Below, in pieces: positions 1 to 6,840 of a DNA stretch of 24,845 nt. Origin of the DNA: a virus. The DNA lies in IMG/VR virus record IMGVR_UViG_3300021960_000475, positions 1 through 24,845 of that record; one strand, written 5' to 3'. The stretch's first letter is position 1, and every line of letters begins with the position of its first letter. The notes under the pieces are model-generated. The model made no database searches. It was not told the origin of the DNA and worked only from the letters and a program-made list of their open reading frames with translations. The translations under genes were made by a program, and so were the position numbers.

Positions 1-3000
1 GGCATCTACCTTCTCCTGCACCTCATCGGCGATCTGCGCGGCCCTGCCTTTCAGCTTGTCTAGCCGAGCCTCCTTGCCACCGAGTATCTTGAGTTCAAGC
101 TCAAATGTCGCCTCCTTGCGACTCTCGTGCATGAACATTACTTTGGAATGCGACTCCGGGGTGAACTGTCGGTCGATGGTTACGGACTCGATGTAGGTCG
201 GGCCTGAGTTGTGGTCCGTTCCGCCACTCTCCGGTGCGGGGATCATGACCGAGACCTTGTTCGTCACTGCGTTCAGGTCCAACTGTTGGGCCCCCGTAAC
301 GACCGAGCCCATAGCCGCCTGTGCCTCCATGAGTGAGACATAGCTCTCCTCGATGTCGTTGACCAATGTGCGTTGGTCTTCGGTGTTGATGAGTGCCATG
401 CGGAGGAAGACCTTGCTGGCGATACCATCCTCTACGGCATTCCTGCCATTCTTTCCACTCTTCACCTTGATTCCCATTCGTGACGCTAGGACTGAGTTTA
501 CTCTCAACCACGCATCCACAACGGTGTCACCAGCCTTGTTCATCACATCTATGGACAGGCCAAACTCTCCGCCCTCCTCGCCTGTTGCTGCGGAGTTCAG
601 TTCGGCGAGCTTCTTGGATGTCATCGACATGTACCGCATCTCGATTGGCACATCTGCGATCAGGAACCTGTATGTCGCCGAGTGCGCCTGGTCGTTCCGG
701 TCGATGCGCCCAAGCACCTGCTGTAGGATGCTGATGTCATCGTACATCTGCGCGATAAGCATCATCCTCGGTCGGCGATCGTTGAACTTGTTTGCGGCAT
801 GCATGTCCAGTCCGGTGGCGGCAGACTTGTTCACAACCAGTGCGTCGATCGCCGACTCCATGCGGTCACCGTTGAAGCTGGCGATCATCTTTGCCCTCTG
901 CTCGACACCCACCTTCCTTTTCTTGTACTTGCCGTTGCGGACCTGCTTTTCGCGACCCGTAGCTTCGCCAATCCGCATCCCTGCCGCCTCTAGCCTCTCA
1001 ATGATCGCGTCGAGTGGCGATCCGCTCATGCCCGAAAGGTCCGCATTATCGACCAGCTCTTTTGCTGCCTCCCAGTCGGACAGGAAGTTGACCATCCCGT
1101 TAGCCCTAAGGAGTTCGTCGGTCAGGTACACCTCATACGCCTTGAACTCGGCGAGGTCGATATTGGCGGATTTAGAGTCCAGATCCGAAACCTCATTTGG
1201 GTCGATCGCGCTATTGACCCTGAGGGTCCTTGAGCGGTGGAGCTGGGCTATGAGCGCTTGCCTAACGCCAAACTCACCGACCTCGTCACCAACCTGCATG
1301 TCCGGAGTCTCGTCTAGGTGCTTCTCCAGGAGGGACTGGCCCGTGTTCTGGACGGCAATGATCGGCTTGTATCCAGCCTTGAACGCAGCTATCGCTTGAT
1401 CCGCGATCGCCTCGGCCTTCATGGAGAGCATTATCGTAGCCATGACCGGGTGTATGTAGTTGGCTAATCCTAGCTGCTCTGCTGGCTTCACCTCCTCGGC
1501 CGACTCAAACGGGGTCATGCGCTTGAAGTCCAGGTCGGACACGCTTCCCGGTTCGGAGTTGTGCATCTCGGCGATGTTCGTGAGGGACATCGTGTAACGC
1601 GCAGCGAGGAGCTTCTTGGGCTTAGCATGCTCTCCATCCAGGCTCATGATCGAGGAGAGGATGTCTGACACCGTGTTCGCGTTATCTTCGAAGCCATCCA
1701 TAGTGACCGTCGAGAACGAGGCATCGCTCATGTCCGCCTGTCTGCGGATGAGGCTTCCGCTTGCAGCCAGGGAGCCTGTGACCACCTGTTGCAGGGGTAG
1801 ACCTCCAGACTTGATGAGAGGCCCCAGGTGAGCGCCGAAAACCCCCATGGGTGTGTTCGTGTACAAACCCAGGGAGCTGGGGCCCTTCGCCCATGTGGCC
1901 GACAGGAAGACCGACCCCCTCGATGCGCCAACATACCTGCGGAAGTAGTCCTTGGTGTGGTCCTTGTCCACCTTGAACTTCTGATCCTTTGCGCGGACCT
2001 GCTTGCCAACACCGCCTCCGCCAGCGGCGTTGTGGCTTTCGTCCATCACTAGGACTGCATGCGGTGCCAGTGCTGACATAAAGTTACGGCGCACCACCGC
2101 ATTGTCACCTGGCCCGAGCTGCCTGTACGAAGACAGCAATACGTCCGCACCGATGATCGCCTTCAGCCTCTTACTTTGCAGCTTCTTCTGCTCTGCGGAG
2201 GCATCAGCCGGTAGGGGCTTGAGCGCGATCAGCTTCTCGGTTGCGACAATGAGGCGTTCCTTCTCCTCTCCAGTTGAAAGCGTGGACTGACCAAAAGCCC
2301 CATCCAGCGCAACCTCCAGGTTGTTGTTCGTGGCCGTCACGGAAACGCCTTCGAGGCCAACGTCTGCTAGGTCTCGGGTCGCCGCCTTGTAGAGGCTGTC
2401 GCCCTCCGTGATCCACACGGGCATGAGTCCTTGGTTTAGGGCATACCGAACTATGGAGCCAGCGATCCGGCCCTTGCCGGTTCCCGTCTGGTCCCCAATG
2501 ATGAACCCCATATTGTTTTCTATCGCGAAGACAGCCAGAGCGACAGCGTCTAGCTGCTCCGCGTACAGGAACTTGGTAGCGTCTTCTGAGCCGAGCCTCT
2601 CGGAGACCCACTCGTCGATCTGAACGCCGGTCTCGGTCTCGATCTTCCTGACTGCACGGTGTGTCTGCTCGGCTAGTCGGGCTGGCATTTTTAGCCCGTT
2701 CTTTTTCCCCTTTGAAGCTGGATCGTAGTCCACCAGCTTCGCGTTCTCTTTGGCTAGAGTTGCAGCGTCCCCTCGGCCCAGGTCTGAAAGTCTTCGGGCG
2801 CGGTCTTCAGAAGCTGTGAGTGCCTCGAATGCGGCACTTGGGGCCAGCTCGGCAGCGGGTCGACCGTCAGCAGTATCTCCATCTCGACCATCGCTGTCAG
2901 TTCCTCGATCGTCGACGCTGGATTCTGCGGGTTCGCGTTCATCCACTCCCAGATCGGTTCGTTCGCCTCCTCGATCATCACTTCCACCCTCTTCCTCAGT

Positions 3001-6000
3001 GACGCTCTGTACGTCGACAGACTCATCGGCTTGCCCATCTGAGCTTCCACCCAGAACAGATTCTTGTTCACCCCCTCTGGGGCCCACCTTACTTTTACCA
3101 TTGCGCCTCTCCTGGATGTTGACTTTGCGAGCATCTGCTGGCGAGGTCATTTTTTCACGGACAGACTTGTCCGCATTCTTGTATGCGAAGCCCCAAGCTG
3201 CCGGGAGGTACGGCACGGCGACTTCGCCGATGTACTCCTGGAACTCGTCCACGAACTCGCCGTAATCGTACACCTCTAGGGCAACTAGCTCCTCGGCAAG
3301 TGCCATGATCTTCTTTCCGACCTCGGGGTCCAGCCTGCCGCCCTGTTCGGGCGCTCCTTTGAGGCCAGAGTCGTTCGAGCCTTCGCCGCGCCCAATCTCC
3401 TCCTTGAGCTTCCGCATCCTGCGCCTCAGCTCTTTCCTCTTGTCGCTGAGGTCGTCTGCCGGAGATGTGGTCAGCTCGACCTCTTCCTTGGCGGGAACCT
3501 CCTCTTTGGAGGGGTCGTCCGCCTTGGATCTGGACTTGAGGTGGTCGACTCCGAACTCAACTATCTGAGAGCCGCCAGTGTCTTCCCAAAGTCGCTTCCC
3601 GCCACGATGCCTATCGGCAATAACGATGATGCCGTCATGGCCGACCATTACCGCGTAGTTCCTGAAGGTGCGGATGCGCTCGTTGTTCTCTTCGGTGCTG
3701 AGGATTCCGGTTGCGGTTATCCGCTTCCCGAGGTAGGTGTCCTTTAGGCCAGCGTTAGCCAACGCCCGAGCTAGGTCAACATCGCTGGCTATAACGAGCG
3801 GGTTCTTTAGGGACACCTGAACCTGACTGACCTTCCCATACCTAGCAGCATGCTCCCTGTCGGTGCTGGTGTACCGACCCGCGCCGAAGATGTTACTTCC
3901 ACCCTCTTCGATGTTTCGCTCCGCGCCTTCTCCACGGTAGGCCAAGACGCTATACGGCTCGCCGGTCACCGGGCGTGAAGGCTCCTCCTGAACATCAACC
4001 GCAACCTCGTCCTCCTCGGCCTCGGGCTTGTCTGCCTCCCAAGTGCTGTCGAACGTCTCGGCGACCTCTCCCCCGGTGTAGCTCGGGGTGGGAACATCGT
4101 AGCCATCGGACTCAAGTAGGCTTGCAACCTCCTCGAAGTTGTACCCGAACTCGTCTATCTCTAGACCGTAGGCCAGCTCCCAGAAGTCAAGCGTCTCCTC
4201 CGATACGGATTCGACGAGCTGCTCTCGTGTGAAGTACGCCTTTTCGCCCTCGGGCGCTTGAGCTGAGACCCGTGCCGACTCCTCACTGATGTCGTGTTCG
4301 TCCATCAGGCGAGTTACAACCTCGGGGTCGATCTTTGACTCAGCCGCCGCGTCCGCTTCGAGGTCGTCGGACAGGTCACTTTTCGACCCCTCTTTCCTCG
4401 GCTTGAATACCATTGCCTGGCCTTCACCCGACACCCATTTGCCATCGGCGGTGAAGCCGCGATCGGAGAGGAACTTTACGGCATGCCTGGTGGGGGCGAC
4501 CATCCTCATCCCGCCCCTCTTCTTCATGAACTCCAACAGCTTAGTCGCAAGTCCCATCTGTTGGAACTCGGGATGAACGTGGAGCGACTGGCCTGAGGTT
4601 GCCGCAACGATTTCCCCATCGCCATTCTTGATGACCTTGGTTGAGTTCATCAGTTGGGCGCTGTCCTTGATGCCAAGGGCCTGTAGTTCTTCAGTTTGCT
4701 TGCGCGTCGGTCTGCCCTCGGAATCCTCGCCAAGCTCCTCCATTAGGTCCTCGACCTCGAACCTCTGAGCCTCGCGGTACTTCGACACACCTTCAGCGTA
4801 TGCGCCAATGGCCTCGCGCACCTCGTCGCCGAAGCCGCGAGAGTCGGCCTCGTCCACGAGTGCCTGGAAGTCCCGAGTGCCACGGAGCATGGCCTGGGTC
4901 AGCGCATCGTAGAGCTTGAGGGTCTTCTTGCGGTCTGCTGGCTCGGGCTCAGCCTCGTTCAGAGCCTCGATCTCTAGGGCCGCAGTCTTGAATCCGAAGT
5001 TGGCTTCCTCGGGGGTGATGTTGCCAGCACCGCCTTCATCGAACTCGCCACGGGAGTTGAGGACCTCTTCGGCGGTAGCCCCGCCCTCTGGGTTCGGCTC
5101 GCGCTCGGGGACCGGTTCGGGCTCAGTGGTCGGTTCGGGCTCAACCGTTGGCACCTCCTCCTCGACGGGAGTGGTGTCGGTCCTGTCCTCGATGACGGTG
5201 GACTCTCCGTCTTCTTCCTCCAGCTCGCGGTCGGCGCGGCTCGGGATGTCCGGGTCCTTCTCTGGCTCGTTGCCGCCAAGCTCGGGCTCGACACTGCTGC
5301 GCTCGAACTTGAAGTGCTTTTCAGCAAAGGATACCGCCTCCTCAAGCGTTTCTCCGGTTACCTCGACGGAGGTTGACACCTGGCTGTCGCCATAGGTGAG
5401 TCGGAATCCATCGTCCGTGAACTCGACGACGGCCTCTTTGCCGTCGACCTTTCCAGTCAGCGACTCGATTTTAGTCTTGGTGGGCTCATCCGGCGTGACC
5501 GGGTCTTTACCCTCGAACACCTCTTGGATGTTCTGAGATAGGGCCTCCTCACTGTCGGCCCTCTTCTCAAGGGCCTCCAGCATCCGCGCCTGTTGACGCC
5601 TCTGCGGGATGGCGGTGATAGCGGGGATGGCCGAGAATGCTGTCAGCTCCTGGGCGATCTGGGTAGCTGTAGGCCAGCTCCACTCGTCGCCAAGGATGGC
5701 TGTACGCATCACATCGCCGACACGCTCCTCAAGCATCTCCGTGACGGGGCCCTGGAGACCGATCGAGTCTAGCGTCTTGGCCCAACCGGCTTCTTTGGCA
5801 ATCCCATCTAGGAAATCGCGTGTGGTGCGCGTGGGGTTCATCTTCTTCCATCGCTGAAAGACGGACCCCTGCATAATGTTGAGCTTGTTCACAAGAGGCA
5901 ACTTCCGCATGCCAGCGGCAATGCCCTCACCGGACTTCTCCGACAGGACTTCAATCCACATGTCGGCATAGCCAGCAGGTAGAGCCTCCATGAAGTCCTT

Positions 6001-6840
6001 GGAGGTCTCGTCGAAGATGATTGCTGCGCGTTCACCGTCCTGCATGGAGGCCATGCCGGGTAAGGCTCGACGGTATGCCGCCGCCGCAACCCTGGGTGTC
6101 ATGACCGCTGTCATGAGATTGGTTTGCGCTGCGCCCCCCGCAACCGCTGCTAATCCTTTAGTCGCAATGTTTTTGCCGAGCTTTTTCTCTAGCAGTGAGC
6201 GGATGGATGTTCCCGCCAGCTTGGCTGCGCCTTTGCGTGTAGCTGTTGCGACTCCGCCTGATGCGAAAAACTCCCCCGCGAATGCTGGGAGCTGGAATAC
6301 AAGCTCGGCCACTCCGCCTAAGAAAGTGCGGTCCCGCTGCATGTCTTGCAGGAAGTCGTTGACGAGCTTGAAGTTCTCAGGGGAGGCCCCAGCGCCGTTC
6401 TTCTCCAGGTCACGGGACGCCTCCCACACTTTGGAAATGTGTCCAAGCTCGTGGACACCCGCAACAAATGGGACTGCACTCGCTGCTGAGAAGTCGTTCC
6501 AAACTTCAGACACACCTTTAGGTTCCTGGTCTGACTCGTCCGCAGTATTGGACACAAAGGGGAGTCCTTGAGCGGTCACGCCTGAGGCCATGCCAGCCGG
6601 TGACTCAGCCTGGGACCACTCAAAACCATCCGGCATTGCGTACTGCCCTAGGGCATCCCTGGAGTCGCTAAGCAGTTGGTCGCGGTGCGGACTGTCGTAA
6701 AGCTTTTTGAAGTCGTACCGCTGCTGACTCTCAGGCTCGTCGTACCGGGGGGACTCAATGTCCCCCATGACGTTCACCTTGCTATGCAGTTCGTCTAGCT
6801 GGGAGAGCCACTTCGTGTACTCCGGGTCTTGAGTCTGCAT
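1..6840 (-). CDS. Giant polyvalent protein: LPD-like region, GNAT, ART-like domain, strawberry-notch-type SF2 helicase (C-terminus outside window)
   Basis: One reading frame runs without a stop from ATG at 6840 to the window edge, giving at least 2280 residues. Visible in order: an alanine-rich helical region (about 130-400) resembling the helical parts of large phage polyvalent proteins, with an HELGH string at 130-134; an acidic EPEP linker (about 560-585); a GNAT acetyltransferase segment (about 690-817) with Q760-x-x-G763-x-A765; an ADP-ribosyltransferase-like segment (about 952-1102) with Y968-R-G, G-R-Y990-T-S-T and a VxLKNPLVI strand; a low-complexity linker (about 1247-1363); and an SF2 helicase with Walker A GDQTGTGKGR (1449-1458), DESH (1600-1603), SAT (1647-1649) and GRIDRNDQ (2044-2051), spaced as in strawberry-notch helicases. 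It starts 3 nt after the preceding virion gene, with no clear Shine-Dalgarno. Polyvalent proteins are thought to be injected to counter host defences; that role is inferred here. Domain calls come from motifs, not a profile search. Confidence 0.85.
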   Translation of the reverse strand, partial: MQTQDPEYTKWLSQLDELHSKVNVMGDIESPRYDEPESQQRYDFKKLYDSPHRDQLLSDSRDALGQYAMPDGFEWSQAESPAGMASGVTAQGLPFVSNTADESDQEPKGVSEVWNDFSAASAVPFVAGVHELGHISKVWEASRDLEKNGAGASPENFKLVNDFLQDMQRDRTFLGGVAELVFQLPAFAGEFFASGGVATATRKGAAKLAGTSIRSLLEKKLGKNIATKGLAAVAGGAAQTNLMTAVMTPRVAAAAYRRALPGMASMQDGERAAIIFDETSKDFMEALPAGYADMWIEVLSEKSGEGIAAGMRKLPLVNKLNIMQGSVFQRWKKMNPTRTTRDFLDGIAKEAGWAKTLDSIGLQGPVTEMLEERVGDVMRTAILGDEWSWPTATQIAQELTAFSAIPAITAIPQRRQQARMLEALEKRADSEEALSQNIQEVFEGKDPVTPDEPTKTKIESLTGKVDGKEAVVEFTDDGFRLTYGDSQVSTSVEVTGETLEEAVSFAEKHFKFERSSVEPELGGNEPEKDPDIPSRADRELEEEDGESTVIEDRTDTTPVEEEVPTVEPEPTTEPEPVPEREPNPEGGATAEEVLNSRGEFDEGGAGNITPEEANFGFKTAALEIEALNEAEPEPADRKKTLKLYDALTQAMLRGTRDFQALVDEADSRGFGDEVREAIGAYAEGVSKYREAQRFEVEDLMEELGEDSEGRPTRKQTEELQALGIKDSAQLMNSTKVIKNGDGEIVAATSGQSLHVHPEFQQMGLATKLLEFMKKRGGMRMVAPTRHAVKFLSDRGFTADGKWVSGEGQAMVFKPRKEGSKSDLSDDLEADAAAESKIDPEVVTRLMDEHDISEESARVSAQAPEGEKAYFTREQLVESVSEETLDFWELAYGLEIDEFGYNFEEVASLLESDGYDVPTPSYTGGEVAETFDSTWEADKPEAEEDEVAVDVQEEPSRPVTGEPYSVLAYRGEGAERNIEEGGSNIFGAGRYTSTDREHAARYGKVSQVQVSLKNPLVIASDVDLARALANAGLKDTYLGKRITATGILSTEENNERIRTFRNYAVMVGHDGIIVIADRHRGGKRLWEDTGGSQIVEFGVDHLKSRSKADDPSKEEVPAKEEVELTTSPADDLSDKRKELRRRMRKLKEEIGRGEGSNDSGLKGAPEQGGRLDPEVGKKIMALAEELVALEVYDYGEFVDEFQEYIGEVAVPYLPAAWGFAYKNADKSVREKMTSPADARKVNIQERRNGKSKVGPRGGEQESVLGGSSDGQADESVDVQSVTEEEGGSDDRGGERTDLGVDEREPAESSVDDRGTDSDGRDGDTADGRPAAELAPSAAFEALTASEDRARRLSDLGRGDAATLAKENAKLVDYDPASKGKKNGLKMPARLAEQTHRAVRKIETETGVQIDEWVSERLGSEDATKFLYAEQLDAVALAVFAIENNMGFIIGDQTGTGKGRIAGSIVRYALNQGLMPVWITEGDSLYKAATRDLADVGLEGVSVTATNNNLEVALDGAFGQSTLSTGEEKERLIVATEKLIALKPLPADASAEQKKLQSKRLKAIIGADVLLSSYRQLGPGDNAVVRRNFMSALAPHAVLVMDESHNAAGGGGVGKQVRAKDQKFKVDKDHTKDYFRRYVGASRGSVFLSATWAKGPSSLGLYTNTPMGVFGAHLGPLIKSGGLPLQQVVTGSLAASGSLIRRQADMSDASFSTVTMDGFEDNANTVSDILSSIMSLDGEHAKPKKLLAARYTMSLTNIAEMHNSEPGSVSDLDFKRMTPFESAEEVKPAEQLGLANYIHPVMATIMLSMKAEAIADQAIAAFKAGYKPIIAVQNTGQSLLEKHLDETPDMQVGDEVGEFGVRQALIAQLHRSRTLRVNSAIDPNEVSDLDSKSANIDLAEFKAYEVYLTDELLRANGMVNFLSDWEAAKELVDNADLSGMSGSPLDAIIERLEAAGMRIGEATGREKQVRNGKYKKRKVGVEQRAKMIASFNGDRMESAIDALVVNKSAATGLDMHAANKFNDRRPRMMLIAQMYDDISILQQVLGRIDRNDQAHSATYRFLIADVPIEMRYMSMTSKKLAELNSAATGEEGGEFGLSIDVMNKAGDTVVDAWLRVNSVLASRMGIKVKSGKNGRNAVEDGIASKVFLRMALINTEDQRTLVNDIEESYVSLMEAQAAMGSVVTGAQQLDLNAVTNKVSVMIPAPESGGTDHNSGPTYIESVTIDRQFTPESHSKVMFMHESRKEATFELELKILGGKEARLDKLKGRAAQIADEVQEKVDA
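2754..3101 (-). CDS. Candidate overprinted gene nested out of frame inside the giant polyvalent gene
   Basis: This 115-codon frame starts with ATG at 3101 and ends with TAG at 2754-2756, in the +1 frame relative to the giant gene, which also stays open throughout. AGGAG lies 7 nt before the ATG, one of the best Shine-Dalgarno sites in the window. Codon use is genome-like (CTG, GTG, GAG, CCG, ACG, TCG dominate), whereas the giant gene uses many CGA, GGA and GAT codons here and encodes a D/S/G/R-rich linker. The predicted protein looks globular: a basic N-terminus (MVKVRWAPEG), helix-forming stretches such as SLRKRVEVMIEEANEPIWEW, and a Trp/Pro-containing C-terminal part (LPSWPQVPHSRH, EDFQTWAEGTL). 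An in-frame ATG at 3134 exists but lacks this ribosome site. I do not recognise the family and assign no function. It could alternatively be a frameshift product of the giant gene, but no slippery site was noticed. Confidence 0.6.
   Translation of the reverse strand: MVKVRWAPEGVNKNLFWVEAQMGKPMSLSTYRASLRKRVEVMIEEANEPIWEWMNANPQNPASTIEELTAMVEMEILLTVDPLPSWPQVPHSRHSQLLKTAPEDFQTWAEGTLQL
3109..3113 (-). promoter_or_regulatory. Strong Shine-Dalgarno for the nested gene
   Basis: The minus strand reads AGGAG at 3113-3109, followed by a 7-nt spacer (AGGCGCA) and ATG at 3101. In the giant gene's frame these bases are ordinary codons for Gln-Glu-Arg-Arg. The site decides the start of the nested frame and argues that it is translated independently. 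Confidence 0.55.
4710..4734 (-). repeat. 25-bp direct repeat, copy 1 (in giant polyvalent gene)
   Basis: This stretch is identical over 25 bp, and in the same orientation, to 8565-8589. Read on the minus strand it encodes LGEDSEGR (residues 703-710 of the giant protein), in the same codon frame as in the other copy. It lies just before the GNAT segment. An exact match of this length is far beyond chance for a window of this size. Confidence 0.9.
5113..5143 (-). repeat. Two 13-bp tandem units encoding an acidic EPEP linker
   Basis: CGGTTCGGGCTCA occurs at 5113-5125 and again at 5131-5143, a period of 18 nt. On the coding strand this gives the repeated EPEP part of a Glu/Pro-rich linker near residues 566-576 of the giant protein. 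It is probably a flexible spacer between domains that expanded by slippage. Confidence 0.6.

Follow-up and report, generated by a model that had tools for sequence, protein, structure and literature searches.

Does a short reading frame that lies out of frame inside a giant phage gene encode a protein of its own, or is it merely a by-product of the gene around it? The question is raised by the window analysed here, which is the whole of a 24,845-nucleotide stretch of viral DNA (positions 1 to 24,845 of IMG/VR record IMGVR_UViG_3300021960_000475). Its minus strand carries a giant gene with strawberry-notch (SNO) helicase domains (1–6840; 2280 codons in the window, the 3′ end being cut by the contig). 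Wholly within this ORF, on the same strand and in the +1 frame relative to it, lies a frame for a 115-aa protein, here called N (2754–3101; ATG at 3101, TAG stop at 2754–2756). A Shine-Dalgarno sequence, AGGAG, stands 7 nt before the N ATG (3109–3113, minus strand). A sequence-only reading of the window had singled out this frame as an overprinted gene, and both the 115 codons and the AGGAG at that spacing are present as it claimed.

The giant gene and its domains

Pfam places AAA_34 at aa 1425–1714 (E = 4.7e-12) and Helicase_C_4 at aa 1942–2088 (E = 6.1e-12) of the giant gene product, and the SNO helicase module, which aligns with phage and plasmid relatives (204–2745, minus strand), begins directly after the N stop. 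There is also a weak GNAT match at aa 749–797. Most relatives encode an adenine methyltransferase (Pfam N6_Mtase or Eco57I) as the domain preceding N, and N lies in the methyltransferase–helicase linker. Methylase–helicase dyads and strawberry-notch helicases are described as features of polyvalent proteins in Iyer et al., 2017 (PMC5512222), where DarB, the archetype of the dyad, is said to shield P1 DNA from type I restriction (section 14). Unlike most relatives, the giant gene of the window has no NPPF-type methylase motif in the part that the incomplete contig contains; N is kept here all the same, which links it to the helicase.

Codon usage of the two frames in the window

Under a codon model trained on the remaining genes, the giant frame scores best throughout the 6.8-kb gene, with the N stretch as the single exception; there the +1 frame does as well or slightly better. 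Over this DNA, GC3 is 0.79 in the N frame and 0.405 in the giant frame, and the synonymous-codon score of N is typical of the genome (z = −0.1), while that of the giant frame is the worst among the windows of the giant gene (z = −5.1). The giant frame here (2754–3101, minus strand) encodes a linker that is rich in D, S, G, R and E with few hydrophobic residues, order-promoting residues making up 13% of it vs 34% of N. The sequence-only reading had described a nested frame with the GC-rich third positions of the genome inside a D/S/G/R-rich linker written in CGA, GGA and GAT codons, and these figures are in keeping with both halves of that description.

The length of the frame is mildly unusual by itself, as the probability of the nested frame being open given the amino acids of the giant protein is 0.053; the reverse test is stronger, with a probability of 0.0067 for the giant frame being open given the nested amino acids. 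Length being weak evidence, it is homology that places the N ORF beyond chance: a profile built from 82 relatives, with the window left out, ranks it top of 350 window ORFs (E = 7.8e-10, the runner-up having E = 0.25).

Homologues of N in relatives

Direct searches of Pfam, PHROGs, annotated phages, IMG/VR and GTDB genome contigs with the N sequence gave no match. Relatives were fetched through the alignment of the SNO helicase instead (80 loci from IMG/VR, then 80 from GTDB, at 27–32% identity), and the N family was found only by local search of these. Local tblastn and phmmer gave weak matches directly upstream of the helicase, and an iterated profile then detected N in 75 of the 90 loci fetched first (the window counted), with E-values down to 6e-45. 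In all 75, N is nested in the helicase ORF in one shared relative frame. The GTDB loci add further homologues, among them ones in cyanobacterial, alphaproteobacterial and Desulfovibrio elements. The profile had no match among reversed ORFs, used as a control, and in a three-frame scan of the context all 106 matches above 10 bits fell in the +1 frame, the best score in either other frame being 3.0 bits. The roughly 106 loci with a homologue comprise phages, plasmids and bacterial mobile elements, and each has N within the giant ORF, ahead of the helicase domain. No stand-alone copy of N was found, although the sensitive profile was run only on loci fetched through the helicase and remoter copies could exist.

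Close relatives of the giant gene covering the N stretch were sought and none found, and selection on N was consequently measured in relatives only. The terminase of the window phage (21627–23057) has kin on three short IMG/VR contigs (L002, L003 and L004; 100%, 91% and 71% identical), none of which reaches the giant gene. The diversity of the 43-row N alignment ruled out a pattern scan.

Start site and selection on both frames

Most N starts in relatives are an ATG with AGGAG or a similar sequence 5–10 nt upstream, and in most members this start falls a few codons before a conserved W.P motif. A Shine-Dalgarno sequence is found at 80% of N ATGs vs 4.8% of the other out-of-frame ATGs of the same giant ORFs, and 5-mer matches at 59% vs 0.7%; N starts were picked partly by their Shine-Dalgarno sequence, which biases this enrichment upward.

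In 13 separate pairs of relatives, differences per codon at N positions 1, 2 and 3 are 0.35, 0.29 and 0.49, and N is the more conserved product over the shared DNA in every pair (mean identity 0.51, vs 0.35 for the giant frame). Together these indicate that selection acts mainly on N. This had been inferred from codon usage in the window and is now supported by the substitution pattern of relatives, with fewest changes at position 2 and most at position 3. The outcome that was to have refuted a nested gene, namely stops or frameshifts in its frame in relatives, is the opposite of what is seen, as the N frame persists across the roughly 106 loci.

The giant frame is also maintained. In 95 loci checked it has no stops over N; selection on N alone would leave an expected 6.5 per locus, and the third frame has 10.6. 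It follows that both frames are kept. The 95 loci are related, and the product of their probabilities is not a true p-value; the direction is unmistakable. GC3 across N loci is 0.39 in the giant frame over N, 0.62 in the helicase part and 0.75 in N, and the giant frame of relatives is again a linker, rich in G, P, S and R. What the giant frame needs over N is openness and hydrophilicity, its amino-acid sequence being weakly constrained. Initiation signals of its own, conservation of the protein and constraint on both frames are all met, and by these marks N is a dual-coding overprinted gene, the two products being inferred.

The N protein

The AlphaFold2 model of one family member (L026, with 60 family sequences) has a pLDDT of 94.7 and a pTM of 0.88, with two strands and six helices, in line with the globular product that had been suggested for the nested frame. 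A single-sequence model of the window N is poor (pLDDT 60) yet has a similar order of elements. Foldseek searches of PDB and BFVD gave no significant neighbour, and there was no consistent match across family members in Pfam, PHROG, NCBIfam or PADLOC. The predicted fold is thus a confident and apparently new one. The charge is modest, at −5 for the window protein and a median of −8 for the family.

Distribution and annotation

In a FastTree phylogeny of the helicase, N occurs throughout the phage and plasmid lineages, the window itself sitting on a long branch. N was not detected in one chromosomal clade of 26 rows, nearly all of them Bacteroidota, nor in a Pseudomonas/Acinetobacter pair, although the helicase is present in both, and it is therefore not universally needed by such machines. 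Eight loci that were negative or doubtful for N (L048, L067, L081, L082, L122, L131, L137 and L143) have a flip of codon frame at the N position and probably carry a diverged N, so that fewer loci truly lack N than the profile implies. P1 darB has neither an N match nor a codon-frame flip. A MutS_I domain precedes the helicase in 6/28 N-lacking relatives vs 0/44 N-carrying ones; with only six cases, it was rejected as a general replacement of N.

The suspicion that annotation passes over the nested frame holds for the records examined. In plasmid records the helicase CDS covers N, which has no entry of its own, and in the cultured Bacteroides phage BS-TP4 a 16-kb CDS is annotated alone, with a diverged N frame at the expected spot (weak, E = 0.02). 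The exception is a Gloeobacter plasmid (L008:1438–7377), where N is annotated as WP_230844304.1 and the helicase is shortened so as to start at the end of N, even though the giant frame is open for a further 0.9 kb upstream of that start. No report of genes nested in these giant genes was found in the literature (open-access papers only).

Other nested frames in giant genes

A frame for an HNH endonuclease lies out of frame in one giant helicase ORF (L029:5014–5652; phrog_3377, E = 8e-46), with the giant frame open across it, and hence known genes also get inserted into such linkers. A possible second nested family occupies another giant-gene linker, again in the +1 frame (L026:3250–3474, L030:4201–4515, L068:4138–4422 and L106:1201–1515). 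Further +1 codon-frame flips in giant ORFs are seen at L085:5173–5388, L014:1582–1887, L018:3694–3981, L018:12160–12423, L094:8938–9465 and L104:1912–2142, some of them with a Shine-Dalgarno ATG and none belonging to a known family.

Interpretation and alternative explanations

The existence of N as a real gene is, on comparative sequence evidence, close to certain. That evidence establishes that N encodes a protein of an undescribed family, that it is nested just ahead of the SNO helicase domain and that it has a predicted ribosome-binding site of its own; the evidence likewise establishes that the giant frame is open across N, where the giant protein would be read through as a disordered linker. 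Ribosomes would then initiate internally on the giant mRNA and yield a separate, mildly acidic N protein of ~13 kDa, a step that is inferred in the absence of expression data. N is in turn probably a dedicated partner of the SNO helicase, whether small subunit, adaptor or regulator, again by inference, as there is no biochemical evidence of interaction. Nesting would make N inseparable from its partner and co-expressed with it. The role of partner is favoured because linkage to the helicase is obligate and no stand-alone copy was found. Taken jointly, a nested gene, a read-through linker, internal initiation and a helicase partner make up an account that we consider reasonably probable, its last two elements being inferred.

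The most serious alternative accepts N as real and makes it an independent anti-host or anti-defence factor, for which the giant linker is a tolerated, co-expressing site. Linkers do seem able to act as cassettes, given the nested frames hosted elsewhere in giant genes, the HNH endonuclease included. Those frames are sporadic, however, whereas N always sits directly before the helicase, even in very distant lineages, and is not found alone, and we regard an independent factor as unlikely, if by no means excluded. N could also lack a start of its own and form an alternative C-terminus reached by frameshifting from the upstream giant protein. In two loci (L008 and L019) its frame is indeed open some way upstream of the likely start, but the window frame opens just 15 codons before the ATG and the Shine-Dalgarno start keeps its place ahead of the W.P motif in most members, which leaves frameshifting very improbable.

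It is no more tenable that the upstream gene, N and the helicase gene are three ordinary genes and that the giant frame stays open across N by accident. Annotation of the Gloeobacter plasmid does take this form, and the giant frame over N is of low complexity, yet the complete lack of stops in that frame across the 95 loci speaks against accident, as does the scarcity of places for the helicase to begin: an in-frame helicase ATG near the N stop occurs in 23% of loci vs 63% of background windows. A separate helicase start after N is accordingly unsupported. Finally, GC-rich genes leave the +1 relative frame poor in stops and the length of N is only modestly unusual, and the open frame might on those grounds be a chance by-product of a GC-rich, low-complexity linker; set against the profile E-values, the conserved start site, the substitution pattern and the globular model, this can be virtually dismissed.

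How the arrangement arose is undecided. By the usual criterion N is inferred to be the older frame at its locus, as its codons are genome-like and those of the giant linker are not, and an ancestral operon of methylase, N and helicase genes that became fused across N would fit with this. Birth of N by overprinting would fit instead with its having neither stand-alone copies nor a fold neighbour.

Significance and comparison with known systems

To our knowledge, most described overprinted genes are lineage-restricted, which makes N unusual as a nested gene that is conserved in phages and plasmids and over several bacterial phyla. The analysis brings to light a family with a confident, apparently new fold that annotation had hidden, and accounts for the odd codon usage of giant-protein linkers. 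Cultured carriers are plasmid pAQ6 of Picosynechococcus PCC 7002, with N within its SNO helicase CDS, and, with its weaker homologue, phage BS-TP4. We hold it an even question whether N is, more widely, an obligate new-fold subunit of methyltransferase–SNO helicase machines carried across many lineages, with giant polyvalent linkers hosting nested genes generally.

Among known systems, the locus resembles DarB-like dyads in its host gene, a SNO helicase that is fused to a methyltransferase in most relatives, and differs in the nested frame, of which the passage of PMC5512222 on these proteins makes no mention. N would point to a missing component of such antirestriction machines. Ocr and ArdA are acidic DNA-mimic antirestriction proteins, and N is like them small, acidic and linked to antirestriction loci; N as a DNA mimic of this type was rejected, since its charge is modest rather than strongly negative and it has no fold match in PDB, that of Ocr and ArdA included. 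Cas11 is a small subunit produced from an internal start in a larger gene, cas8 or cas10d, whereby an internal cistron supplies a small protein to the same machine, which for N is proposed only; Cas11-type starts are in frame and that of N is out of frame. The Rz1 gene of phage lambda, wholly nested in Rz in the +1 frame with its own start, differs in that N is no lysis lipoprotein and in its host gene, its fold and its range of carriers (for N, phages and plasmids, and several phyla), and shares with N the arrangement of a complete gene inside another on the same strand, with a start of its own and products that are, for N by inference, functionally linked.
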